From Bradyrhizobium yuanmingense (lineage in GTDB: Bacteria > Pseudomonadota > Alphaproteobacteria > Rhizobiales > Xanthobacteraceae): DNA of 64,000 bases. A program made the position numbers and the translations under genes. Under the pieces are notes generated by a model. The model ran no database searches. It was not told the DNA's origin and was given only the letters and a program-made list of their open reading frames with translations. Below, one piece after another: positions 4,177 to 58,006 of this stretch; the first letter of the stretch is position 1; the number at the start of each line of letters is the position of its first letter. The stretch lies in assembly GCF_900094575.1 (NCBI RefSeq), contig NZ_FMAE01000003.1, positions 682,001-746,000 on the forward strand, written 5' to 3'.

Positions 4177-5583
4177 TTATGCGTTAGATGGCAAAAGCTT
4201 CTTACTGTCATCCGCGCCGGCCGCATTTTCACCGGGCCGCGGGACCAGCGGTACCACTGCTGCCCGAGCGAGATCTTCCAAAGCTGTCGAGATATATTTG
4301 GCGTAGTGCCCCTCGATCATTTTCACAGAAGTGTTGTGCAGTTTAGCAACGTGCTGAATGGGGAGGCGGTTTCGCAAGCCCCGCACGATGCTGGAATGTC
4401 GTAACGCATAAGGAATGGCTTCCGGCAGCCCTGCGCGCTCGCGGATCGCATGCCACGGACGAGTAAGTTCTGCCGTCTTCCACGGACCGCGTTCTGATTT
4501 TCTCCAAACGATGCTACCTGCTTCCTGCTCATGGCTCCATCGCTCGAACAACGGCGCGTCTCTTGGACGATCTAGGATTCCCGGTAAGAGGACTTCGACG
4601 ATATCTTCGCCCACCGGAACTGGTACGGAGCCGCCGTTGCCGCCACGTCCCTTGTAGGAACCTGGTACCATCAAACGTCGCTCTTTCCGTTGTGCATCGC
4701 TAACGCGCATCCGCCTTGCCTGCGCAAATCGCGCGCCCGTTGCTGCAAGGCACACGACAATGCGATATAGATCGCCTTCAAATCCTTGCTCGTCGTCGAT
4801 CTCGCATGCGGCTTGAAGCAACGTGCTGATCTGCGCGTCCGTGAGGATTTGATTGTCTCGAGCAACAGATATCTCGTCATCGTCATCAATGCGCTCAGCC
4901 TTAAACCCGTCTTTCACAATCGAGAGGAATGTTGGATTCAGCTTCTTTTGTTCCGCCGTCAAGCGTGGCCATGCAGCATTCAGCGCCGCCTTCAGGTCGT
5001 TTATGAGCCGCTGTTTTGTCGTCGCCTTCAATTCTACAGGAAGGTCCTCGCGCCACGTCAAAAGATCATCTTCCTGTAGCGCGTGTAGATGGACTGCGGC
5101 GAGAGAGGCGGCCTCAACGGCTTCTTGGCTGCCACGCTGCTCTTGACCAAGAACGTAACGCCGCAAGCGGCGACCAGCATCGGATCGAACCTCGCGTCCG
5201 GCCCGTCGGCTATCACGGGCATTACGTTCCCTGATGTATGTCTCTACAGCCGTCCGCACGGTGGGTACCGGTCCGGCGGCTTGTGCCGCCGCTTCTATTC
5301 TGGACCGGGTGACGTGTTCCCGCGCTTGTGTCACCGCCTGCTCGAAAGTCAGCGTGCCTTCGGCAAGTTTGTCGTTGACGTCGTTGGCGATGCCGACCGG
5401 CGCCTGCTTGTAGTTGGCTCCTTCATGGTGATTGCGCCAGCGCACGAACCAAACGCCGCTCCGCTTGCCCTTGCGATAGCCAAGATGCGCCTCGGCATCG
5501 AGGCGGCGCCAATGGACGCCAAGCTCCAGTTTCGAACGCGCCTTGGCAGTCGTGATCTGAGCCTCAGTGAGCGTCTTTGTCAC
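4177..5583 (-). CDS. Tyrosine recombinase/integrase
   Basis: This 468-residue phage-type integrase has an N-terminal arm-binding and SAM-like region followed by the catalytic domain. Visible catalytic elements are the first arginine in ATGARFAQ, RHSS in YALRHSSIVRGL, and the nucleophilic tyrosine region GHYAKYIS. Such enzymes insert and excise elements at tRNA genes. It starts about 140 bases from the tRNA-Glu fragment at 5725-5773 and reads away from it. A second integrase starts on the other side. The adjacent excisionase-type gene may control direction. It appears intact. Confidence 0.9.
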   Translation of the reverse strand: MTKTLTEAQITTAKARSKLELGVHWRRLDAEAHLGYRKGKRSGVWFVRWRNHHEGANYKQAPVGIANDVNDKLAEGTLTFEQAVTQAREHVTRSRIEAAAQAAGPVPTVRTAVETYIRERNARDSRRAGREVRSDAGRRLRRYVLGQEQRGSQEAVEAASLAAVHLHALQEDDLLTWREDLPVELKATTKQRLINDLKAALNAAWPRLTAEQKKLNPTFLSIVKDGFKAERIDDDDEISVARDNQILTDAQISTLLQAACEIDDEQGFEGDLYRIVVCLAATGARFAQARRMRVSDAQRKERRLMVPGSYKGRGGNGGSVPVPVGEDIVEVLLPGILDRPRDAPLFERWSHEQEAGSIVWRKSERGPWKTAELTRPWHAIRERAGLPEAIPYALRHSSIVRGLRNRLPIQHVAKLHNTSVKMIEGHYAKYISTALEDLARAAVVPLVPRPGENAAGADDSKKLLPSNA

Positions 5584-12959: not shown

Positions 12960-13149
12960 AGCCAATGGCACCCTGGGGGGACGGGGGGATCTCCGACGTC
13001 GCGCGTGACGAGGTCAGCTCTTAGATTTTTGACCCATAGCGCGATCGAGGCCGGATAGATTATCTAACGGCGAGAAATCCGCCTCATACACCTTCAAGCA
13101 GCCTAGCGAATCGGCGTACATCAATGCGGTTCTCTGGTTGTGGAAGGCC

Positions 13150-14856
13150 ATGCCCTATTTCACTCAAGATCACATATCGCATGCTCTGGAAGTCTTGCCG
13201 GAGCAAACGCATTCCTCTCTGATTAGCTTTTTAGCAATGTTGCGAGATGGAGTACCCGCATCGTCCACCCCGTCTAAAACATTCGGCAGCGCACAAGAGA
13301 CGTCTCTCTTGAAGGACTATTTTCAGCCCGGCGGCGGTGTCCCAGATAAGCCTTGGTACATCCCTTTCGGGAAGGCTATCGCGGGATTGACGCCCTGGCG
13401 ACCTAAGCAACATGCGGGGACTAGCTTGCAGCGCATGCGCACTGGCAAGCAATTTGTGTACCGGCAGGGCAGCGGCACGGCGAACGATCTTTGGTCGCTT
13501 GATCCCAATCTCGTAACGGTCCTCTCCGAGCGGCATGCCGACGTTATTGGTCAAATCCCGATATCGATTCATAATCTCGCTGTTTGGTGCTATCGCCAGA
13601 AGGAAGTCGCCTCACATCAGGCGGCCATCGCTGAGTTTATCGAAGAGTTTCACCTCAACACTTACGGTCTCGTCCCGGATATTTTTACGGACGAGGAAGA
13701 CTCATTCCTCTCTGCAATCCCCCTTGCGGCGAATTCGTTGAGCGACGCGGACATTATGGCGCTCCTTGTGCCGCCCGGTTCTGCGCCAGCAATTCCCGTC
13801 AGTGTAGCGCCGGCTTCCGCAGTGGCCTCGCCTGTTACTGCGGAGGATGATGACTTTACGTGGGAGATTGATGGGGCCGATCTAGGTGCTGCGATCAGCG
13901 GGCTCGCTGGCGTAGAGGACGCTGCGTTTCGAGCGGCCTCAGCGCTAAGGGCCGGAATGCACGTGATCTTTACTGGGCCACCCGGCACCGGAAAAACGCA
14001 GCTTGCTAGGAGGCTATGCGGTGCGTCCGGAATTCCGTGGACTATGGCCGCTGCTACAGATCAATGGACCACCATCGATACCATCGGAGGATATCTACCC
14101 TCTGCAATTGAGCCGGGCCAGTTAGATTTCCAGCCCGGCTTCGTAACGACTGCCATCAAACAACGCCGAACACTTATCATAGATGAGATCAATCGTGCGG
14201 ATATCGATAAAGCTTTCGGGGAGCTATTCACGCTATTAAGCGGAAACGCCGTCGATCTGCCTTATCTGATGAGAGGGTCGGCCGCAGGCGCCGCCCCGCG
14301 AAGAATCCAACTCGCGATGGAGGACGCCGAAGCTGATGAATCGCTTGAGGTCATCAGAGTGCCGAACTGGTGGAGGATCATCGGTTCGATGAACGATGCA
14401 GATAAAGCGAGCCTCAAGCGACTTTCATATGCTTTCATTCGGCGCTTTGCATTCATTCCCGTAACGGTCCCAAGCGCCGACATATACAAGGGCCTCATCG
14501 ATCTTGGAGCAGGGGAAGGCAGTGGTGGGCTGAAGCCAGCAAAGACGGACTTCCTTAATGCTTTGAAGGGCATCTTCGCTGAATTGGACGGGCTATCCTC
14601 CTTTGGCATGGCAATGGGCTATGCCATACCGGAGGCCATGATGCGCCACGCAAGAGGCGAGCTAGCGCTGGATTCGGCAAGGACGACCGAAGGCCTTCTA
14701 TTGTCCGGACTTGAGTTGTTTGTCGCACCCCAATTTCAAGGGCGAGCAGACAAGCACGAGGACTTGGTCAAGCTGGTTAGGCGCTTTATTCTAGCTCCGA
14801 ATGCGGTCGACCGGTTCAAGTCTACGTTGTCGGTCTGGACAGGGTTTGTAGATTGA
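13150..14856 (+). CDS. McrB-like AAA+ NTPase, restriction subunit
   Basis: This protein of about 568 residues has a unique N-terminal region of roughly 230 residues, a low-complexity Pro/Ala/Val linker and a McrB-type AAA+ domain. The Walker A is GPPGTGKTQ near residue 276 and the Walker B is LIIDEINRAD near 345. A McrB signature MNDADKAS is followed by the arginine-rich YAFIRRFAF. In McrBC and LlaJI enzymes this subunit recognises DNA and translocates, driving the nuclease partner. Its stop overlaps the nuclease start, so the two are translationally coupled. The ATG at 13150 or a TTG at 13138 could be the start. Confidence 0.85.
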   Translation: MPYFTQDHISHALEVLPEQTHSSLISFLAMLRDGVPASSTPSKTFGSAQETSLLKDYFQPGGGVPDKPWYIPFGKAIAGLTPWRPKQHAGTSLQRMRTGKQFVYRQGSGTANDLWSLDPNLVTVLSERHADVIGQIPISIHNLAVWCYRQKEVASHQAAIAEFIEEFHLNTYGLVPDIFTDEEDSFLSAIPLAANSLSDADIMALLVPPGSAPAIPVSVAPASAVASPVTAEDDDFTWEIDGADLGAAISGLAGVEDAAFRAASALRAGMHVIFTGPPGTGKTQLARRLCGASGIPWTMAAATDQWTTIDTIGGYLPSAIEPGQLDFQPGFVTTAIKQRRTLIIDEINRADIDKAFGELFTLLSGNAVDLPYLMRGSAAGAAPRRIQLAMEDAEADESLEVIRVPNWWRIIGSMNDADKASLKRLSYAFIRRFAFIPVTVPSADIYKGLIDLGAGEGSGGLKPAKTDFLNALKGIFAELDGLSSFGMAMGYAIPEAMMRHARGELALDSARTTEGLLLSGLELFVAPQFQGRADKHEDLVKLVRRFILAPNAVDRFKSTLSVWTGFVD

Positions 14857-16157
14857 GCCTTTTGGAGCAATGGAGGGAGTTCGTCCTCGATCCCAGTCGA
14901 GCTGGCCGGTATCTGTCAAGCATCGGGGCTTCTGTCGAGGCTGGCCAAGCTCCTGCCATTGACTCGAATGTAGTGCAGCATTTTCTAGAAGCATTGGCTG
15001 CCGCGTCAACGGATGTATGGTTTCTAGGATCGATAGTTGATCTCCTTTCAGCTGGGTATGGTTCGTTCTGCTCACAATCCTTACCGGCCCTGCTCGATTC
15101 GTTGTCAAATGAGCATGTAGGTGAGAACGCCGTGGTGGGCCCGGCGTTGAGGGGTAACGTTCGATGGGATTTAACTGCGGTAGCACGCCATTCGGGCCGC
15201 ATCTCTCCGGTCCAATTTCTCACCCGACTTCCGGCTCGGAGTTTTGCGCTTCCAGAGAACCAGTTGGTGAGGTGGTTGGTTGACAGCCTGGAGCGCTCTC
15301 TTCGGGAAGTTGAGGAACGCATCGGGTCTAAGGCGCTCCCGCCGCAATTGCGAATGATTCGTGACGGATGTCGCGAGGCGAATCGGCATCCTTGGTTCAA
15401 GGACGTTCCGTCTCCGAAGGCGCTTGAGGTCAATATGATCACATCAGCCCAACGACAGAGGTTGCCGGCCTATCGATTAGCAGCAACTCTTTCGCAACGG
15501 CGTCGGCAGATGGTGGACCGAAACAGGGCGAGCAGGTGGCTCTCCGTTCGTGAATTGCTATCGGTGAATTGGCTCTCACCCTTAGACGAAGACGACCTCT
15601 TTGAATTGTACGGCCTTACTCTTGTGCTGGACGTGCTGGAGCACGAAGCGGCATTTGGGCCTCCTCATCAATACGGCTTAGCGATATCTGGCCGAGCGCA
15701 TGTTGCTCGCTTCGTGAAAGGGGCGTCGACTGTCACTGTCTACTTCGACCAGTCGCCCGTCACATTTCTTGGGTGTCACTCTGCCCAACTTGCAATTCAA
15801 GAAGCTCACCTCGGGGTTAGATCCTCTCCCCGGCGACCTGATATAGTGATCGTCCATCAAAAAGGCGAAGAGCGCCACATTGTACTTGTTGAGGCGAAGA
15901 ATTCGTGGCGGGGGAGCTATCTCAGCGACGGCATCTACAAGGCGCTGGCTTACATCGCTGACTTTAAAGATGTGTGGCGCTCTGACCTATCGAATCCAAA
16001 AGTGGTTCTGCTCGTGCCGGAGGACATCAGCTTAAGATCTGGAGTGGCTCTCAATTCAATGAGTGTGGTTTTGGTCTCTTCTTTTGATAGGGCTGCATTT
16101 GCCGCCGGTATCAAAACCGCCTTATCACTCAACGACGGCGTGAGTGACCACCATTGA
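14853..16157 (+). CDS. McrC-like PD-(D/E)XK nuclease subunit
   Basis: This is a 434-residue protein starting at a TTG that overlaps the preceding stop codon. Near the C-terminus it has the nuclease core RRPDIVIVHQ then IVLVEAKNSW, with Asp330, Glu347 and Lys349, followed by a helix SDGIYKALAYI. This is the PD-(D/E)XK pattern of McrC-type subunits. The N-terminal 300 residues are helical and not clearly assigned (DUF2357-like is possible). It would cut DNA when activated by the McrB-like partner. Confidence 0.75.
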   Translation: MSLLEQWREFVLDPSRAGRYLSSIGASVEAGQAPAIDSNVVQHFLEALAAASTDVWFLGSIVDLLSAGYGSFCSQSLPALLDSLSNEHVGENAVVGPALRGNVRWDLTAVARHSGRISPVQFLTRLPARSFALPENQLVRWLVDSLERSLREVEERIGSKALPPQLRMIRDGCREANRHPWFKDVPSPKALEVNMITSAQRQRLPAYRLAATLSQRRRQMVDRNRASRWLSVRELLSVNWLSPLDEDDLFELYGLTLVLDVLEHEAAFGPPHQYGLAISGRAHVARFVKGASTVTVYFDQSPVTFLGCHSAQLAIQEAHLGVRSSPRRPDIVIVHQKGEERHIVLVEAKNSWRGSYLSDGIYKALAYIADFKDVWRSDLSNPKVVLLVPEDISLRSGVALNSMSVVLVSSFDRAAFAAGIKTALSLNDGVSDHH

Positions 16158-16221
16158 CCACTTGTGGCAAGTTCTGGCATAGAAACGCCGTTGGCAGAGT
16201 GGGCAATGATTCGGAGGGGAC

Positions 16222-17397
16222 ATGCTCCAGCGACTTTTCACGCTTCAGGAGCTTGAGGGGGTCCTTAAAGTATCCATTTCCACCCTCCGCCGGGCCGTTC
16301 GCTCTGGCCAGCTTGCTCACGTAAGAGCGGGCGACCGGGGGCAAATCCGCGTTTCTGAAGATGCCGTCAATGTGTATCTAGGCCGGCAGTCTACGCTCCA
16401 AGAAGCTTCGCTCCAACAGGCTGAACCGCAGGCTTCTCCGAACGATATCTCGGGTGAGGAGTTACCCCGAGTTAAAGTTCGTGAAGGAAGTATCGGCCGC
16501 CGATTGACATATAAAATACTGGCGGCAGACGTCTCAGATGGTCTGAAGTCCTTGGCGTCGGAATCGGTCGACTGCGCAGTGACCTCTCCCGCATATTTTT
16601 GGCAGCGCGATTACGGCTATGAAGGCCAAATCGGCCACGAAGCGACAATCCAGGCTTACGTTGACGCGCTAGTTAAGCCGTTCGAAGAACTGCGCAGGGT
16701 GCTAAAGGAAAGAGGAACGTTCTTTCTGAACATCGGGGATGCCTACTACAATGCGAAGGGCCGCCCGCATGGACGTGATCGAAAAAGCGCTGGACGCCAG
16801 CTAGCGAGAGCCAAACTCCGGGCCGTAGATGGTCCCGGGCTAGGTCTCCCACGGAAATCGCTCATCGGTCTTCCCTGGCGAGTAGCGCTTGCCATGCAAC
16901 AATCTGGGTGGACCTTGCGGACCGCAGTGATCTGGGAGCGCCCCGGATGCTTAAGTGAGCCCACCGCGCACGATCGACCTCACCGCACCTTTGAGCACGT
17001 CTTTATGTTCTCGAAGGGGCCGAAATATTTCTTCGACCGGTCCGCGTTGAATGGTGAGGAAGATATCTGGCGGATAGCCGCTCGGCCTGAAAATCCCTTC
17101 AGCCACGCGGCGCCATATCCCACCGAGCTTGTTGATCGTTGTTTGGCTTGCGGATGTCCTGAAAGCGGGGTTGTTCTCGACCCGTTTCTTGGTTCAGGCA
17201 CGACAGCCATCTCGGCGCTTCGCTCCGGGAGGTCGGTCATTGGAATCGACATGAACGAGAGCTATTGCGAGGAAGCTGAAAGACGCATCTTGAAAGAACG
17301 TGCTGACGGCGTAACGAAGTCGCGGGATCAGTCTGGCAAGAAGGTCGCTTCAGAAAGCAAAGCCAAGAGAATACCGCGACAAGCTAAACGACGCTAA
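16222..17397 (+). CDS. DNA methyltransferase (N4/N6 type) with N-terminal HTH
   Basis: This 391-residue protein starts after a strong GGAGGGG box. Residues 1-55 form an excisionase-type helix-turn-helix (TLQELEGVLKVSISTLRRAVRSGQL). The methylase domain follows with motif IV as TSPAYFW at about 121 (one residue off the usual TSPPY) and motif I near 320, DPFLGSGTT then VIGIDMN. This motif order is the beta group of amino-methyltransferases. Placed directly after the McrB/McrC-like pair, it is likely to protect the host at the restriction target. The HTH may allow autoregulation or specificity. Confidence 0.85.
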   Translation: MLQRLFTLQELEGVLKVSISTLRRAVRSGQLAHVRAGDRGQIRVSEDAVNVYLGRQSTLQEASLQQAEPQASPNDISGEELPRVKVREGSIGRRLTYKILAADVSDGLKSLASESVDCAVTSPAYFWQRDYGYEGQIGHEATIQAYVDALVKPFEELRRVLKERGTFFLNIGDAYYNAKGRPHGRDRKSAGRQLARAKLRAVDGPGLGLPRKSLIGLPWRVALAMQQSGWTLRTAVIWERPGCLSEPTAHDRPHRTFEHVFMFSKGPKYFFDRSALNGEEDIWRIAARPENPFSHAAPYPTELVDRCLACGCPESGVVLDPFLGSGTTAISALRSGRSVIGIDMNESYCEEAERRILKERADGVTKSRDQSGKKVASESKAKRIPRQAKRR

Positions 17398-19556
17398 CTA
17401 AGCGTCTCGACATCTCGATACAGCTTTCGGAGATGATCGTCGGACATATCGATGATGGGCTCATACATGAAAGAGTTCAGGTGGATATTCTCCGGGGTCA
17501 TCAGCATTACCCTTTCGATAATGGCAATGTTGGCGGTTTTGGCCGCGAACCGCTTCTTGTACTCTCTCAGCAATTTGGGCGTCTGAGCTGAAGTGATCCC
17601 GGCGAGCAGTTTTTCATCCTTTATTTGCTCCGCCATGAACTTCTCGGCGGAGAGCCGGGTGGCTATCGACAGGACGACCTTGTTTTCGAAGTTCATGCCT
17701 TCCGTTGCTTTGAGGCATTCGCTGGCCGCGGTGAAAATGTCCGACAGCACGGACCCCGTACCATCGGCCAGCGCTATCGTTGAGTGGAATACCCGATTGT
17801 AGACGTCGGCTAATGCGTTCCGCGTGATCGTGGTGCTGTCCGCCTTCCAATGGAGCAAGGACGTGAGGGTCCCATAGTCAGCGTCCGCCTCGCCCTTCGT
17901 GAATTCAACGAGGTTGCGTATGAACGGTATGGAGGCAATTTGTTTCTTCGCATCCGAGTGAAAGTTTAACTTCCAGTCATTCACAAAGATGTTCTTTATG
18001 CCAGCGGCCTTCTGTAGCGAAAGTCCGGCGGAGCTTTTCGATGCCATGTAGCAATAGTCGTAGTCTACAAATCTACTGTTCACGGTACGAAAAAAATCGA
18101 AATTGTGCGTGAGGATTATCTGATTAAACGTCTCATCATCCGCTATGTCCTTTAGGTATTGGATGATTGCGTACTTATTTTTGTAGTCGAAGGAGTCAGC
18201 GATATCATCAACAACTAGTACAGTCTTCTGATTTGCCGCTCGCCGCGCCTGGATTTCGAAGATAATGTTCAGAACGTACAGGGCCTTCTTTTCACCGGTG
18301 CTGAGCGCCGAGATGAGTGCCTCCCGATCAACCGACGTGCTCTCGGTGCCGTCCTTGAAGATGAAGCCAAGGTTCAAAATCGGGTCTTCACCGAGCATGA
18401 CCGAGATTTTGTTCTTTGCGACAAGCTCGAACGGCACAAAGAAGCGGTCGTTGAAAATATCGATGGTCTCTTCCCAACGAGTTCGTTCGGCGGCAGCTTC
18501 TTTTTCGATCTCGGCTTTCCGTTTTTCTACTGCACGGTAATGAGCTAGCAATTCTTTAAACAAGTCGATATTGGCGAAAATGTACGACTTCCATGCCTCT
18601 TCCCGGAAGGCGTCAACGTTTGCCAGCTGGGCTAACAAATCCTCACGTTGTTCAATGTAGGACTGGAAGTCGCGGACCGTGGCATTCTTTTGCATAAGTT
18701 TTTCGATTTCTGAAAACTTCTTTCTGAGGGTCGCATCGCTTGTAATCCCTTCTTTTTCCTTGGCGATAAGCGCCTCTAGGTCCTTCGCGTTGCTGATTTC
18801 GAGACGTGTCCCAGATACAAGATTGATCGAGTGGTTCGCTTTGAAGAAACCGTGGTCAGCGAGGCTTTTCGCTACGGACGCAGCATTGTAATAGTTGAAA
18901 GTACCCCGTTTGAAGTATGTCGATTTGGCCAGGAGCTCGTTGTACTTTTTGATGTAATCCTCGATGGCAGTTTTGACGTCTTTCGTTGCGAGGAGGCCAA
19001 GAACTTTGTCATCGAAGACGGTATCGTAATCGACATCGCTGAACGGCGCGGACTTTTGAGCAAGCACCTCGGATTCGATGCGGAAAAGAGCTTTCGCAAA
19101 CTGATCTTCATTCGCCGTGAATGTCCTCGAGATCTCCTTTTCGATATCTCGCTTTGATCCAGATTGGGTCCGGAGCGCTTTGACGAAGTTGTCTTTGCAC
19201 TCCTCGATTGCCTCATGCAGGCTGATGTATTCCTGCTTCAGTTTTGCGTTTATGAGCAGGGTCGACGTCTTCTCGTTGTTCCCAAAAATCTCGTCATAAG
19301 GCCGGACAACCAGCACAGCATCCTCTGCAAGGGGAGCACCGTCCAGGGTGATGGTTCGCCTCGTGGTACGCGTGGGAAATATTCGGTCCTTTGAGGGCTG
19401 GCCGTCTGCGATGTCCTGGAATGTCGTCGCCAGCGAGGATTTCATTGCCCCATTGGGCGCGTAAATCGCGAATGCTCTCGCCTTTTTGAAATCGAAGTCC
19501 GCCTTGAGCTTCTTGATTCCGTAGCAGTTTTCGAGGTCGACACTGATCTTAGCCAT
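17394..19556 (-). CDS. ABC/SMC-like AAA ATPase, probable defence protein
   Basis: This 720-residue ATPase is split by a coiled coil. The P-loop is atypical, IYAPNGAMKSS at residues 31-41 (no GxGK). The ABC signature is LSTGEKK at about 418, the Walker B is VLVVDD at about 447 and the H-loop is ILTHNFDFF at about 481. The region between (270-365) is charged and coiled-coil-like. Related RloC/PrrC-like and other stand-alone ATPases are found in phage defence islands. No effector domain is recognised at the C-terminus. Its stop codon overlaps the convergent methyltransferase stop. The gene is visibly more AT-rich than its surroundings. The ATG at 19556 fits the P-loop spacing. Confidence 0.75.
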   Translation of the reverse strand: MAKISVDLENCYGIKKLKADFDFKKARAFAIYAPNGAMKSSLATTFQDIADGQPSKDRIFPTRTTRRTITLDGAPLAEDAVLVVRPYDEIFGNNEKTSTLLINAKLKQEYISLHEAIEECKDNFVKALRTQSGSKRDIEKEISRTFTANEDQFAKALFRIESEVLAQKSAPFSDVDYDTVFDDKVLGLLATKDVKTAIEDYIKKYNELLAKSTYFKRGTFNYYNAASVAKSLADHGFFKANHSINLVSGTRLEISNAKDLEALIAKEKEGITSDATLRKKFSEIEKLMQKNATVRDFQSYIEQREDLLAQLANVDAFREEAWKSYIFANIDLFKELLAHYRAVEKRKAEIEKEAAAERTRWEETIDIFNDRFFVPFELVAKNKISVMLGEDPILNLGFIFKDGTESTSVDREALISALSTGEKKALYVLNIIFEIQARRAANQKTVLVVDDIADSFDYKNKYAIIQYLKDIADDETFNQIILTHNFDFFRTVNSRFVDYDYCYMASKSSAGLSLQKAAGIKNIFVNDWKLNFHSDAKKQIASIPFIRNLVEFTKGEADADYGTLTSLLHWKADSTTITRNALADVYNRVFHSTIALADGTGSVLSDIFTAASECLKATEGMNFENKVVLSIATRLSAEKFMAEQIKDEKLLAGITSAQTPKLLREYKKRFAAKTANIAIIERVMLMTPENIHLNSFMYEPIIDMSDDHLRKLYRDVETLS

Positions 19557-19751
19557 AACCTGCCCCAATAATAAGCGGCGCATCGTAGGCTGCGGGTCAG
19601 GTTGAGCCGAGTGCCCGTTTCCACTTATCCACGAACATTCTGTATTGGCAGGCAGGGGCGGTTGGCCGGACCCGTTATCCGTGCTACACAATGCGGAAGC
19701 GGCTGTCCTTTTAGTTCTGCGTAATCAATCGCTTAGGCCTTCGCTCTTTGT

Positions 19752-19771
19752 TTCCCCTAGGGAGCGCCAGC
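19752..19771 (+). repeat. Right attachment-site repeat
   Basis: This is a 20-base exact copy of 5756-5775, the 3' end of the tRNA-Glu fragment. Similarity continues patchily beyond it for about 100 bases (ATCCTAAGCCATTGAAAA, then a shared AGGTGGTCC block before the ATG), matching the sequence before the integrase at 5873. The element therefore runs from about 5776 to here. Confidence 0.8.
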
Positions 19772-19886
19772 TGATCCTAAGCCATTGAAAACCTGCACAC
19801 TCTAGGCGACCATGTCAGCCTGGAGAGACCGCCCTGTTGCACTTTGCCTCACAAGGTGGTCCGCAAATGGTGCTCGCGGTCGTGAC

Positions 19887-21703
19887 ATGGCTATCCTGAT
19901 CCCGAGTCTCGGCTTCGCGCGCTTCGACAGCCGTGGTGAGCTACGACTGGCGGAACGATTGAAGGACTTCCTCGAGGAGAACGCCGTCGTTTGGCACAAC
20001 CTGCCTGTCGGGCCTCGCAACCGGCATCCGGACTTCATCATCATTCATCCCGCGAACGGCCTGCTCGTGCTCGAGGTGAAGGATTGGCGCCTGGAGACGA
20101 TCGTGTCGGCCGACAAGACGAAGGTCGAACTGCTGACAAGTCGTGGTGTGGTGCGGGAAAGCAATCCGCTGGAGCAGGCTCGCAAATATACATTCGAGGT
20201 CGTGCGCACGCTTGAGCGCGACGGGCAATTGTTGTTTCCGCCGGGACATCGCCTCGCGGGCCGGTCCATCGTTCCGTTCGGCTTCGGGTCCGTGTTCACT
20301 AACATCACCCGCAAGCAGTTCGATCAGACCGATCTCAAGGAGGTGTTCTCCGGGCATCTCTGCCTGTTCAAGGACGAGATGACCGAGGGCGCGGACCCCG
20401 AGGAATTCCGGTCGAAATTGTGGCGCATGGTTCATCCGCGTCTCGAAGAGCCGCTGTCCATGCCGCAATTCGACCGCCTGCGCGCGCTGCTGTTCCGGAG
20501 GTTCGGATACGACAGATTGCCCTGCCTTTGGACGATGCGCCTCGCGCCGATTCTTCGGATCGGACGCTCGCGGTCATGGACCTTCATCAGGAGCAGTTCG
20601 CGCGCAGCCTGGGCGAGGGGCATCGCATCATTCGCGGCGTCGCCGGATCGGGCAAGACCCTGATCCTCGCTTTTCGCGCCGAGTATCTGGCACGTGCGGC
20701 GGCAAAGCCGGTGCTGATCCTGTGTTACGCCAACGGCATCGCCGGCCGGCTTGAAGATGCCATGCAGAGCAGGGGTGTCGAGGACCGCGTTCAGGTTCTC
20801 ACCTTCCACTCGTGGTGCTTCCGGATGCTGCGGACGTACGGGATTACCGCCCCATCCGAGCGAGACTATCCGGACTACGCGGAGCGCCTGGCTGCGAGCG
20901 TTTCAGAGGTCGTGAAGGCGGTCGATCACGGCCATATCCCGGCGGAGCAGTACGACGCGGTCCTGATCGACGAGGCGCACGACTTCGAACCGCAATGGCT
21001 CGCGCTTGCGGCCAAGATGGTGAACCCGCGCACCAAGGCGCTGATGGTCGTCTACGACGATATCCAGGCTATCTATAAGGGGCGTGAACGGCCGGTCTGG
21101 AGCCAGCTCGGCATTGAAGCAAAGGGCAGAACGACCGTACTGAAGGTGAACTATCGCAACACCGCCCAAATCGTTGCCTTCGCGAGACGCTTCGCCGCGG
21201 ACGTCATCGGCGCTCCCGGCATCACGGCCGACGACGAGCACGCCATCCTGCTGCCCGAAGATGCGGGTCGGCAGGGACTGGAGCCGGATGTGCGGCGGTG
21301 CGTGAGCATCGAGGCGGAAGCTCACTGCGTTGCCGAGTGGTTTCTCGACCGTAAGAAAGCCGGCTACGAGTGGTCGCAGATGGCGTGTCTCTACCCGGAG
21401 CACTGGATCGGCGGACGGGTTGCGCAGATTCTCGCCGGGCATGGTGCGCCGATCGACATCGCCAAGGACAATCGCAACCGGGTTTCGGTCAAGCGGGTCG
21501 CCGTGCGATTCCTGAGCATGCACAGCGCGAAAGGGCTGGAGTTTCCCTGCGTCGCCATCGCCGGCTTGGGCCTGCTCGGCCGCTACGGCGAGACCGTCGA
21601 GGAATGTGTCCGGCTGACCTATGTCGGGGTGACCCGGGCAACTCACGAGGCGCTCCTGACGTATTCGAGCGAGTCGGCATTGGTGCAGCGCTTGATCGCG
21701 TAG
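19887..21703 (+). pseudogene. NERD-domain UvrD-like helicase, single frameshift
   Basis: The first part (from 19887) carries a NERD nuclease-related domain: HPDFIIIHP, then GLLVLEVKDW. The second part is a UvrD/Rep-like helicase with Walker A GVAGSGKT, Walker B VLIDEAHDF, VNYRNTAQI and HSAKGLEF. A single C appears to be missing at about 20495: CTGTTCCGG where CTGTTCCCGG would restore LLFPEVRIRQ. All other motifs are intact, so this is either a recent mutation or a sequencing error. Such proteins are frequent in defence or mobile regions. It sits just right of the att repeat where an integrase would be expected. Confidence 0.75.
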
Positions 21704-53401: not shown

Positions 53402-53773
53402 TCAAAGCTCGATCACGCCGCGGCGCGCCGCATGCGCCACCGCATCGGTGCGGCCGGTGGCGTCGAGCTTGTCGAGCAACGAGCCGACATGGAATTTCAC
53501 GGTGTGCACGGAGATGCCGAGCTGCCGGGCGATCATCTTGTTGGAGGCGCCTTCGGCCATCAGCGCCAGCACGTCGAGCTCGCGCTGCGTCAGCGCGATG
53601 TCCGCAGGGCTGATGCGCGGATCGCGGGCTATGATTGTCGCGGCGGCCTGCTCGCCGGGCGCGGCGAGGCGAAGCCCGGCGACATTGCCGAGCAGGGCCG
53701 CGAGGCGATCGGCGAGTGTGGGGTCGTCGATCTCCAGCGACAATACGATCTCGGCCGTCTTGTCCTCGCTCAC
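53402..53773 (-). CDS. LuxR-type HTH protein coupled to a pseudo-protease
   Basis: This 123-residue protein has a GerE/LuxR helix-turn-helix at about 60-118: LTQRELDVLALMAEGASNKMIARQLGISVHTVKFHVGSLLDKL. The first 55 residues resemble a shrunken receiver-like domain (EIVLSLEIDDPTLADRLAALL) without clear phosphorylation residues. The GTG start overlaps the stop of the upstream protease-like gene by four bases, so the two are translationally coupled. This suggests one regulatory unit. The targets are unknown. Confidence 0.8.
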   Translation of the reverse strand: MSEDKTAEIVLSLEIDDPTLADRLAALLGNVAGLRLAAPGEQAAATIIARDPRISPADIALTQRELDVLALMAEGASNKMIARQLGISVHTVKFHVGSLLDKLDATGRTDAVAHAARRGVIEL

Positions 53774-54636
53774 GCCTCCGGCCTTTCGCCGACCGTGACC
53801 TTGAAGCTGACCGGCTCGCCGCCACGGTGCACGGCGACGTCGACCACCGCGCCGACGCTCGCAGGTCCCAGCGTTCGCGACAGTGCGCGCACGCCCGAGA
53901 GCTTCTGGCCGTTGACCGCCACGATCACGTCGCCCTGGCGAATGCCGGCCGCGGCCGAAGGCCCAGCCTTGTCGACATTCATGACCATGGCGCCGATGCC
54001 GTCGTCGAGCTGCACCGGCTGCAGCCCGAGGCCGAGATAGCCACGCGCGATGCGGCCGCGCGCCTCGAGCTGGGGCGCGACACGCTCGATCGTCGCGGTC
54101 GGGATCACCAGCACGCGCCGCGGCCCGAGCACGGCCATGCCGAAGGCTTCGCCCGATGCATCGAGCGCGAGCCCGCCCTGCTGGCTGCCGCGTAGGCGGA
54201 CGTCGAGCTCGATCCGCGCATCGATGTCGCCGCCGCGCAAGGAACGCCAGCTCTTTCCGGACGCCGACACCATCCCGAGCGCCGCGCTTGGTGTCTCCCG
54301 GTTGGTCGCGACCACGACCGACAATGCGCCCAGCGGCGGGACGGTTGCGGCGAGCTTGACCGGCGCGACCGCGGCCTCAGTGCGCAGCAGCGCGATGTCG
54401 GTGGTGTGGTCGCGGCCGGCGATCGTGGCAGCGACCCGACGACCGTCGGCGAGGCCGATCTCGACCCCGCCCTCGTCGGCCAGCGCCTCGTCGGCGGTGA
54501 CGATCAGGCCGGGTTTCCAGGCAAAGCCGGTCGCGCGAGAGCGATGCGAATGCACGGAGACGACGGACGGCGCGGTGCGCGCCACAATGTCCGCGAGCGC
54601 GGAGGACAGTGAGGACAGGGGACTAAGATCAGTCAT
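53770..54636 (-). CDS. Catalytically dead trypsin-like protein with PDZ domain
   Basis: This 288-residue protein has the DegP/HtrA layout: a trypsin-like domain (about 20-190) then a PDZ domain (RGYLGLGLQPVQLDDG, SAAAGIRQGDVIVAVNGQKL). Only the catalytic Asp is kept (HTTDIALL, Asp80). The His position reads TADEAL (Glu50 in place of His). The GNSGG motif reads GSQQGG, with Gln153 in place of Ser. No signal peptide is visible, so it is probably cytoplasmic. It is translationally coupled to the LuxR-type gene and may act as a sensor. Confidence 0.85.
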   Translation of the reverse strand: MTDLSPLSSLSSALADIVARTAPSVVSVHSHRSRATGFAWKPGLIVTADEALADEGGVEIGLADGRRVAATIAGRDHTTDIALLRTEAAVAPVKLAATVPPLGALSVVVATNRETPSAALGMVSASGKSWRSLRGGDIDARIELDVRLRGSQQGGLALDASGEAFGMAVLGPRRVLVIPTATIERVAPQLEARGRIARGYLGLGLQPVQLDDGIGAMVMNVDKAGPSAAAGIRQGDVIVAVNGQKLSGVRALSRTLGPASVGAVVDVAVHRGGEPVSFKVTVGERPEA

Positions 54637-54827
54637 GGCGGGCTCCCGTAAGTTGTCCTCAATCTGGGATGCCGCGGGCGATTGCGAAACTGGCCGGGTG
54701 GCCAGGACAAGGACGGCCTCCGCAAGACCGCGACCGACGAACATGTGATTGGGAGCGCCTCACGGGAACGTGTAGCAATCCCAAAATTGGGCCATTTGGC
54801 CTCGAGGATTTCCAGCGAGCCCGACCG

Positions 54828-56770: not shown

Positions 56771-56899
56771 CGCAAAATGGTCCATACCTGACCGAGAAAC
56801 TTCCGCGCGTTTGCGACGTTGCTGCGTAAGCGAGATCCTGCCACTTCATGCATGTGCATCTCACAGCCCGCATTCAGCACAAGACACGGTGATCACCCA

Positions 56900-58006
56900 A
56901 TGAATCGTCGCTATGCGATTGCCGCGGCAGCCTTCGCCGCCCTGCTGGTCGCGGTCACGGCCGCGAAGATCCTGCATGTCCCCGTCTCGTATGTCCCATG
57001 GGCCGCGCCCTCCGCACGTGCCGTCGAGCAGCGCGGGCCGCTGTGGGACGGCGAGAAGGCAACCATCGACATCTTCGAGCGCGTATCGCCGTCGGTCGTT
57101 CAGGTTGCGGCCAAGTCGGCGGCAAGTCCCCTCATGGGCGAGGAGAGCCAGGCCGGCGGCGGTGCTTCCGGCACGGGATTTGTCTGGGACCGCGACGGCC
57201 ACCTGGTGACGAACAATCATGTTGTCGCCAATGGCGGCGAGATCGCCGTGCGCTTTGCCTCGGGTGAGGTGGCCCAGGTCGACCTGGTCGGCACGGCGCC
57301 CAATTACGATCTCGCGGTGTTGCGCATCCGCAGCGTGCGCCAGCTTCCAGCGCCGATCGCTCTCGGCAGTTCGAGCGACCTGAAAGTCGGACAATCCGCT
57401 TTCGCGATCGGCAATCCCTTCGGGCTGGATCAGTCGATGACTTCCGGCATCATCAGCGCGCTCAAGCGACGGCTCCCGACCCATGGCGGCCGCGAGATCG
57501 CCAACGTCATCCAGACCGATGCCGCGATCAATCCCGGCAATTCGGGCGGGCCGCTATTGGATTCCGCCGGCCGGCTGATCGGCGTCACCACGGCGATCAT
57601 CTCGCCGTCCGGATCGAACGCCGGCATCGGCTTCGCGGTCCCGGTCGACGTCGTGAACCGGATCGTCCCTGAGCTGATCCGCAACGGCCGCGTGCCGACG
57701 CCGGGCATCGGCATCGTGGCCGCCGGCGAGGATGTTTCGACCCGGCTTGCTGTCGAAGGGGTGATCGTGGTGCGGACGGCCCCCGGCAGTCCTGCCGAGC
57801 GGGCGGGGATTCGCGGCGTCAACTTTTCCACGGGAGCGGTCGGAGACATCATCACCGCGGTGGAAGGCAAGCCGGTGCGGCGCCTTGCCGACCTGACCGA
57901 TGCGCTCGAGCAGGCCGGGGCCGGAAAGACCGTTCGGCTCACGGTCAAGCGCGGCTCGGACACCCGTGACGTGAATGTGAGCATTGTCGATATCGACAGG
58001 TCCTAG
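56900..58006 (+). CDS. DegP/HtrA-type serine protease with PDZ
   Basis: This is a 368-residue protease with an N-terminal membrane/signal segment (YAIAAAAFAALLVAVTAA). The complete triad is visible: His in VTNNHVVANG, Asp in NYDLAVL and Ser in NPGNSGGPLLD. One PDZ domain follows, near 270-360 (APGSPAERAGIRG, GDIITAVEGKPV). It is probably periplasmic or anchored to the inner membrane, for protein quality control. It contrasts with the inactive relative at 53770-54636. The ATG at 56900 places the signal at the N-terminus. Confidence 0.9.
   Translation: MNRRYAIAAAAFAALLVAVTAAKILHVPVSYVPWAAPSARAVEQRGPLWDGEKATIDIFERVSPSVVQVAAKSAASPLMGEESQAGGGASGTGFVWDRDGHLVTNNHVVANGGEIAVRFASGEVAQVDLVGTAPNYDLAVLRIRSVRQLPAPIALGSSSDLKVGQSAFAIGNPFGLDQSMTSGIISALKRRLPTHGGREIANVIQTDAAINPGNSGGPLLDSAGRLIGVTTAIISPSGSNAGIGFAVPVDVVNRIVPELIRNGRVPTPGIGIVAAGEDVSTRLAVEGVIVVRTAPGSPAERAGIRGVNFSTGAVGDIITAVEGKPVRRLADLTDALEQAGAGKTVRLTVKRGSDTRDVNVSIVDIDRS

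Follow-up and report, generated by a model that had tools for sequence, protein, structure and literature searches.

A conserved pseudo-HtrA gene overlapping a LuxR-type regulator gene in Bradyrhizobium: a candidate autoregulated module with an active HtrA as possible second target

Results

A pseudo-HtrA gene and a LuxR-type gene overlap at the locus

We analysed a stretch of 64,000 nucleotides from Bradyrhizobium yuanmingense (NCBI RefSeq assembly GCF_900094575.1, contig NZ_FMAE01000003.1, positions 682,001 to 746,000), hereafter called the window, whose own coordinates are used throughout. The subject of this report is a pair of genes on its minus strand, encoding an HtrA-like protein that lacks the catalytic His and Ser (pseudo-HtrA) and, immediately downstream, a LuxR-type regulator. 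The pseudo-HtrA coding sequence (53770-54636, 288 aa) starts with an ATG that has a GGGAG run a short way 5' of it. It encodes a Trypsin_2 domain (Pfam, E 6.6e-16) and a single PDZ domain (PDZ_2, E 2.9e-15; approximately residues 199-282, 53791-54042), without a strong N-terminal hydrophobic leader. The LuxR/GerE-type regulator (53402-53773, 123 aa) has a GTG start and a GerE helix-turn-helix (HTH; residues 61-115, 53429-53593; Pfam, E 3e-20), preceded by a putative half-receiver remnant. As the initial annotation of this DNA had stated, the regulator begins within the pseudo-HtrA stop codon: its GTG (53773-53771) overlaps the TGA (53772-53770) in a GTGA (53770-53773, minus strand) that suggests translational coupling. 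The same GTGA overlap, with a LuxR-type gene downstream, was found in 80/80 named Bradyrhizobium loci.

Two elements lie upstream of the pair on the same strand. The first is a candidate palindromic operator, CTGGCCACCCGGCCAG (54690-54705), which begins at -69 relative to the pseudo-HtrA ATG. The second is a block, CATCCCAGATTG (54660-54671), recognized by eye as conserved in many Bradyrhizobium loci; it is possibly a -10 or 5' leader element.

The catalytic triad is lost throughout a family under selection

Alignment to solved DegQ/DegP chains, together with the family columns, placed Glu50 (54487-54489), Asp80 (54397-54399) and Gln153 (54178-54180, all minus strand) at the positions of the catalytic His, Asp and Ser, respectively. 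This agrees with the initial annotation, according to which Glu and Gln replace His and Ser while Asp and the PDZ domain remain. The substitutions are conserved: among 149 distinct family proteins, obtained from 197 rows by merging identical ones, there was no intact-triad homologue, and the catalytic His or Ser stood at its own column in 0/149. The His column holds Glu in 143 proteins, Gln in five and Asp in one; the Ser column holds Gln in 75, Glu in 71 and His in three (these three His occur at the Ser column only). At the Asp column we found 133 Asp, nine Gly, five Asn and two Ala, i.e. 16 non-Asp residues. Asp is not the best-kept triad position, and the His and Ser columns always carry a polar replacement. 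Outside the 149 proteins stand L027, whose gene is cut by a contig end, the ordinary HtrAs L120, L127 and L128, and loci collected later. A subgroup formed by L028 and L068-L071 (37-41% identical to the protein of the window and for the most part Bradyrhizobium) displays Gln-Asn-Glu at the triad positions.

When compared with 14 active HtrAs, 19 family representatives formed a single clade (support 100/100). The median dN/dS (ratio of nonsynonymous to synonymous substitution rates) over 66 pairs among 12 same-genus orthologues was 0.174, with 0.219 for the protease part and 0.113 for the PDZ part, and by this comparison pseudo-HtrA is under purifying selection. The loop R198-G199-[Y/W]200-L201-G202 at the beginning of the PDZ domain is unchanged in 22/22 representatives, and W40, G74, D76, W130, S132, G135 and G136 are likewise invariant. 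The structure model of pseudo-HtrA reached a mean pLDDT of 69.6, with residues 197-259 below 50; because the model is poor over the PDZ domain, we left the groove uninterpreted. The best Foldseek matches of this model, to be read with its poor PDZ part in mind, were DegS chains. The MamO family model was absent among the 21 NCBIfam matches of pseudo-HtrA (E<=0.1).

The highest 18-residue hydropathy within the first 45 residues, a crude measure, had a median of 1.07 and a maximum of 1.77 in the family, compared to 2.19 for the other HtrA encoded in the window. Given this lack of a strong N-terminal hydrophobic stretch, pseudo-HtrA should be cytosolic and thus share its compartment with the regulator.

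The two genes are inherited together

A search of 60 relatives yielded pseudo-HtrA matches at E<=1e-50 in 28/36 same-genus genomes (own genome included). At E<=1e-35, matches were found in 105/391 genomes of the bacterial family, 93 from the same genus and 12 from nine other genera. In an alignment search across 397 genomes of the order, pseudo-HtrA family members scored at least 281 bits and were thereby separated from ordinary HtrAs, which among the matches listed did not exceed 181 bits; members were located in three further families of the order (f24, f20 and f2). Outside the order, no match of such high score was among those listed for 398 genomes of the phylum.

A LuxR-type gene followed pseudo-HtrA in 27/27 full-length loci of the first search (L027 being cut by the contig end), in 12/12 loci L108-L119, and in 40/40 loci of a larger set reaching down to 37% identity, many of them from the same genomes. 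Spacing in these 40 loci, with start codons picked by nearness, was a 4-base overlap in 32 and ranged from -53 to +30 in the remaining eight. Pooled over all family rows with downstream DNA, which include repeated genomes, linkage was 197/197, so that no separation of the pair was seen. The regulator was recognized by its HTH motif in 195 rows and by eye in two (L066 and L108), where the gene is present with a slightly different motif. None of 11 ordinary HtrA loci had a LuxR-type gene downstream. In the reverse direction, 18 of 23 same-genus genomes searched for the regulator have it, and all 18 also have pseudo-HtrA; both genes are absent from four (G006, G012, G015 and G020), and in G016 the locus is cut by a contig end. 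By this comparison the two genes are co-inherited.

The pair is kept without the window's tex, glyoxalase and synthase neighbours, within the stretch examined, in L073-L076, L093, L094 and L096. No other conserved neighbour common to all was seen by eye across 15 loci, and none of the window's own neighbours is kept throughout the 40 larger loci. At 2.2 kb from pseudo-HtrA the window encodes an HtrA with an intact His-Asp-Ser triad and a hydrophobic N-terminus (56819-58006, plus strand). We rejected it as a regular partner of the pair, its orthologue being found in 2/20 loci L077-L096 (L081 and L086).

The regulator carries what looks like a reduced receiver

The window regulator has approximately 50 residues before the HTH linker and no complete phosphorylatable receiver. 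The regulators of most same-genus members, as well as those of L057-L059 from other genera, are 119-133 residues long; in L060-L072, which include four same-genus relatives of 38-41% identity (L068, L070-L072), the length is 186-236 residues. Response_reg was matched in one of eight distant full-length partners, below the cut-off (E 0.003), and the partners' profile aligned with NarL, VraR and ChrA, receiver region included. The model of the window regulator displays a strand-helix-strand-strand arrangement followed by the HTH, and full-length DesR accounts for both matches of this model at E<=0.001. Based on the profile alignment over the receiver, the model fold and the DesR matches, the short regulator looks like a protein whose receiver has been reduced to about half.

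No Pfam match to an autoinducer-binding domain was obtained for the window regulator or the eight distant partners. The best match of the window regulator by sequence in the PDB was CviR (E 5.8e-12), with an identical TVKFHV stretch in the HTH. A kinase gene recurring beside the pair was not seen in 15 loci inspected by eye, no dedicated search having been made.

A palindrome of CviR type marks the promoter of the pair

The palindrome CTGGCC-N4-GGCCAG, represented in the window by the site at 54690-54705, precedes the pair in members of different genera and families. For 13 representatives sharing less than 60% protein identity we scanned 150 bases upstream of each; the best site had at most one mismatch in seven, at most two in nine and at most three in 12. 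First-order shuffles reached these thresholds at frequencies of 0.0008, 0.0088 and 0.11, respectively. In the subgroup of L028 and L068-L071 the operator is shifted or weak.

According to an excerpt of PMC12114271, which credits Stauff and Bassler, the 'ideal' site of CviR is CTGNCCNNNNGGNCAG. Compared with this site, 149 pair promoters showed no mismatch in 119 cases, one in 14, two in nine, three in six and four in one. The agreement is independent, since the palindrome was derived from the promoters before CviR was considered. Since the published site of CviR, the regulator's nearest relative of solved structure, matches the palindrome, autoregulation of the pair through it is probable.

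The exact palindrome occurs at the pair promoter in 5/6 Bradyrhizobium genomes, G005 having one mismatch. A second exact copy is found in four of the six, each time inside a coding frame; the copy in our genome (G000:C61:29175-29190; L225, L246) lies in a coding frame conserved in four genomes and is probably due to chance. A larger regulon was considered and rejected, the CviR-type pattern showing no excess over a reversed control in five genomes. Of eleven stretches inspected around CviR-type matches (nine of ten other places in our genome and one from each of two additional genomes), six fall within coding frames; the other five are outside any called frame and revealed no conserved partner.

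An active leaderless HtrA is a possible second target

An active leaderless HtrA (LH) of 311-339 aa, with the GNSGG motif, Trypsin_2 and PDZ domains and no leader seen, recurs in genomes carrying the pair. LH adjoins the pair in L059 and L064, from two genera. It is divergent from pseudo-HtrA in L110-L118 (9/12 of L108-L119, from two other families), where two operator-like sites lie between the genes; these two palindromes are about 28 bases apart. In Bradyrhizobium, LH is unlinked to the pair; in our genome it is found at G000:C99:562030-563046, with CTAGCCATCTGGGCAG at -96 of its ATG. LH is present in 28/28 pair-bearing and 5/8 pair-lacking same-genus genomes (Fisher 0.008, with related genomes); the three genomes without LH are small or fragmented assemblies.

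A promoter site with at most two mismatches precedes LH in 17/28 pair-bearing versus 0/5 pair-lacking genomes (Fisher 0.018); among these 17, the site in G011 is probably due to chance. The oriented pattern CTRVCCAYNYGGSCAG, written after the sites had been seen and hence no independent test, occurs at three places in our genome: the pair promoter, the LH promoter and one coding place. As a second target of the regulator, LH is supported by these sites and arrangements, less firmly than the operator of the pair itself.

Other features of the window

A phage-type integrase is encoded at 4177-5583. The region 13138-21703 contains defence-like genes, including an AAA_5 ATPase, an N6/N4 DNA methylase with an HTH, and NERD and UvrD parts; one protein of this region matches PADLOC PDC-S46 (E 1.1e-274). 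The NERD and UvrD parts (19812-20663 and 20420-21703) are both matched by a single PADLOC model, C3a187, each in a frame of its own; this gene may thus be frameshifted or split.

Discussion

A proposed input module for a LuxR-type regulator

Our preferred reading, held with somewhat less than even confidence, is that the cytosolic pseudo-protease serves as the input module of a LuxR-type regulator controlling both the pair and the active cytosolic HtrA. The pair would form a self-contained cytosolic regulatory module. Pseudo-HtrA would have lost proteolysis while retaining the HtrA fold and the peptide-binding loop of the PDZ domain, and its partner would be a LuxR/NarL-type DNA-binding protein with a degenerate receiver. 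Pseudo-HtrA would contact the regulator, and protein C-termini occupying the PDZ domain or the old active-site cleft would alter the DNA binding or the stability of the regulator. The levels of active cytosolic HtrA and of the pair would in this way follow the cell's load of peptides of this kind. In a more specific form, which we regard as doubtful, pseudo-HtrA would be the sensor of a cytosolic circuit for protein quality: the dead sibling would bind the protein C-termini that LH also reads, be unable to cut them, and relay its occupancy to the co-translated regulator setting the levels of LH and of the pair.

The initial annotation had proposed a sensor in which a pseudo-protease binds a peptide and controls a DNA-binding partner. 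This proposal is supported in part. Of the two findings named as refuting it, a homologue with intact triad and a pair not conserved together, neither was made. Its DNA-binding half has gained ground, the regulator being tied to a conserved palindrome that matches the CviR site; peptide sensing by the PDZ domain and control of the regulator through contact with pseudo-HtrA are inferred. A new kind of sensor is plausible; in sharper form it would be an autoregulated pseudo-protease/LuxR module that probably governs an active cytosolic HtrA. To that earlier proposal our analysis adds the operator, and LH as likely second target.

Several observations weigh against our preferred reading. At at most one mismatch the LH promoter site is found in 13/28 pair-bearing versus 0/5 pair-lacking genomes (Fisher 0.13), these genomes being related and not independent, and at two mismatches it is still missing from 11/28 pair-bearing Bradyrhizobium genomes. 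Shuffles produce an LH-type site with at most two mismatches in 21% of cases and with at most one in 2%. In our genome the first half of the site overlaps the TAG stop of the upstream gene, and CTAG/CTAA-like letters recur in all 17 genomes with an LH site; its conservation may therefore be partly coding. The pattern CTRVCCAYNYGGSCAG occurs at seven places in G005, six in G021 and three in G026, pair and LH promoters included. No LH of at least 240 bits was detected within the stretch examined in 38/40 loci L057-L096, and the same holds for L108, L109 and L119. As to the operator, L069 has no recognisable site (five mismatches), L028, L058 and L119 have three mismatches each among the 13 representatives, and genome-wide counts of CviR-type sites fell below the reversed control in five genomes.

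Alternative explanations

Pseudo-HtrA could instead act mainly on LH, in mixed trimers or as an adaptor subunit, with the regulator merely setting the levels of both and no direct sensing taking place. HtrAs form trimers, both proteins match Trypsin_2 and PDZ, all 28 pair-bearing same-genus genomes carry LH, and LH and the pair are neighbours, adjacent or divergent, in three arrangements. However, the stop/start overlap joins pseudo-HtrA to the regulator and not to LH, and LH was not found beside the pair in those 38 of the 40 loci L057-L096; we consider this explanation unlikely.

The palindrome could also be read by an acyl-homoserine-lactone receptor or another LuxR-type protein, in which case the pair would simply belong to a quorum-sensing regulon. 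Sites can be common to several LuxR-type proteins, and the palindrome is of the type bound by CviR, itself an acyl-homoserine-lactone receptor. What makes this quite improbable is that the palindrome stays at the pair promoter across genera and families, while exact copies elsewhere occur only within coding frames (in 4/6 Bradyrhizobium genomes), and that a simpler candidate for reading it is encoded next door, in a regulator having the same TVKFHV stretch.

We assign a still lower probability to the binding of a metal or small ligand, as the signal, at the acidic former active site (E/D/E-Q) in the manner of MamO, an HtrA pseudoprotease described as metal-binding in the excerpt of PMC4794232: the His and Ser positions are always polar or acidic, as such a role would have it, but the Asp position varies (16/149 non-Asp). 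Finally, a decaying HtrA gene lying by chance beside a regulator would explain the lost catalytic residues and is already refuted by a dN/dS of 0.17, strict linkage in four families of the order and the single clade.

Comparison with known systems

Pseudo-HtrA has Trypsin_2 and PDZ domains in common with the HtrA proteases DegS, DegP and DegQ (MEROPS S1C). Unlike these, it has neither the catalytic His and Ser nor a strong leader, carries one PDZ domain, and is encoded beside a DNA-binding protein. In the regulator, the GerE HTH is shared with the NarL/FixJ response regulators (VraR, NarL, DesR, ChrA), whereas the receiver is degenerate and comprises approximately 50 residues in most Bradyrhizobium. 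A lux-box-like palindrome at the promoter is a trait that the pair shares with LuxR-type lactone receptors. CviR of Chromobacterium violaceum, the closest solved relative of the regulator, has the same 16-bp palindrome consensus and binds acyl-homoserine lactones (excerpt of PMC12114271); for the regulator, by contrast, we obtained no match to a lactone domain, and its N-terminus resembles a receiver remnant.

Two systems may serve as precedents, and neither equals the one described here. MamO of the magnetosome is likewise an HtrA fold repurposed after loss of triad function; by the same excerpt it differs in acting in magnetite formation and in binding metal through two histidines (PMC4794232). 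In Pseudomonas aeruginosa, PqsE alters DNA binding of the LuxR-type protein RhlR by contact, without need for catalysis, and the action of pseudo-HtrA on its regulator would resemble this; PqsE is, however, still an active hydrolase and RhlR a ligand-dependent receptor, as far as the excerpt of PMC8754118 goes. LuxR-type proteins under contact control, like pseudo-proteases of the HtrA type, are already known. An excerpt of a survey (PMC2605481) speaks in general terms of 42 inactive serine-protease homologues in prokaryotes, and our searches of the open-licence part of PubMed Central turned up no description of a conserved overlapping pseudo-HtrA/LuxR pair.

Significance

The pair offers a likely role for a family whose profile matches point to proteases, and it is a compact, testable system in soil bacteria that are tractable, comprising two proteins with a single operator and a single candidate target. 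If our preferred reading is true, a dead enzyme would here have turned into the input domain for transcriptional control of its own live relative. In the more specific form given above, bacterial signalling would use an inactive copy of the output enzyme to receive the input.
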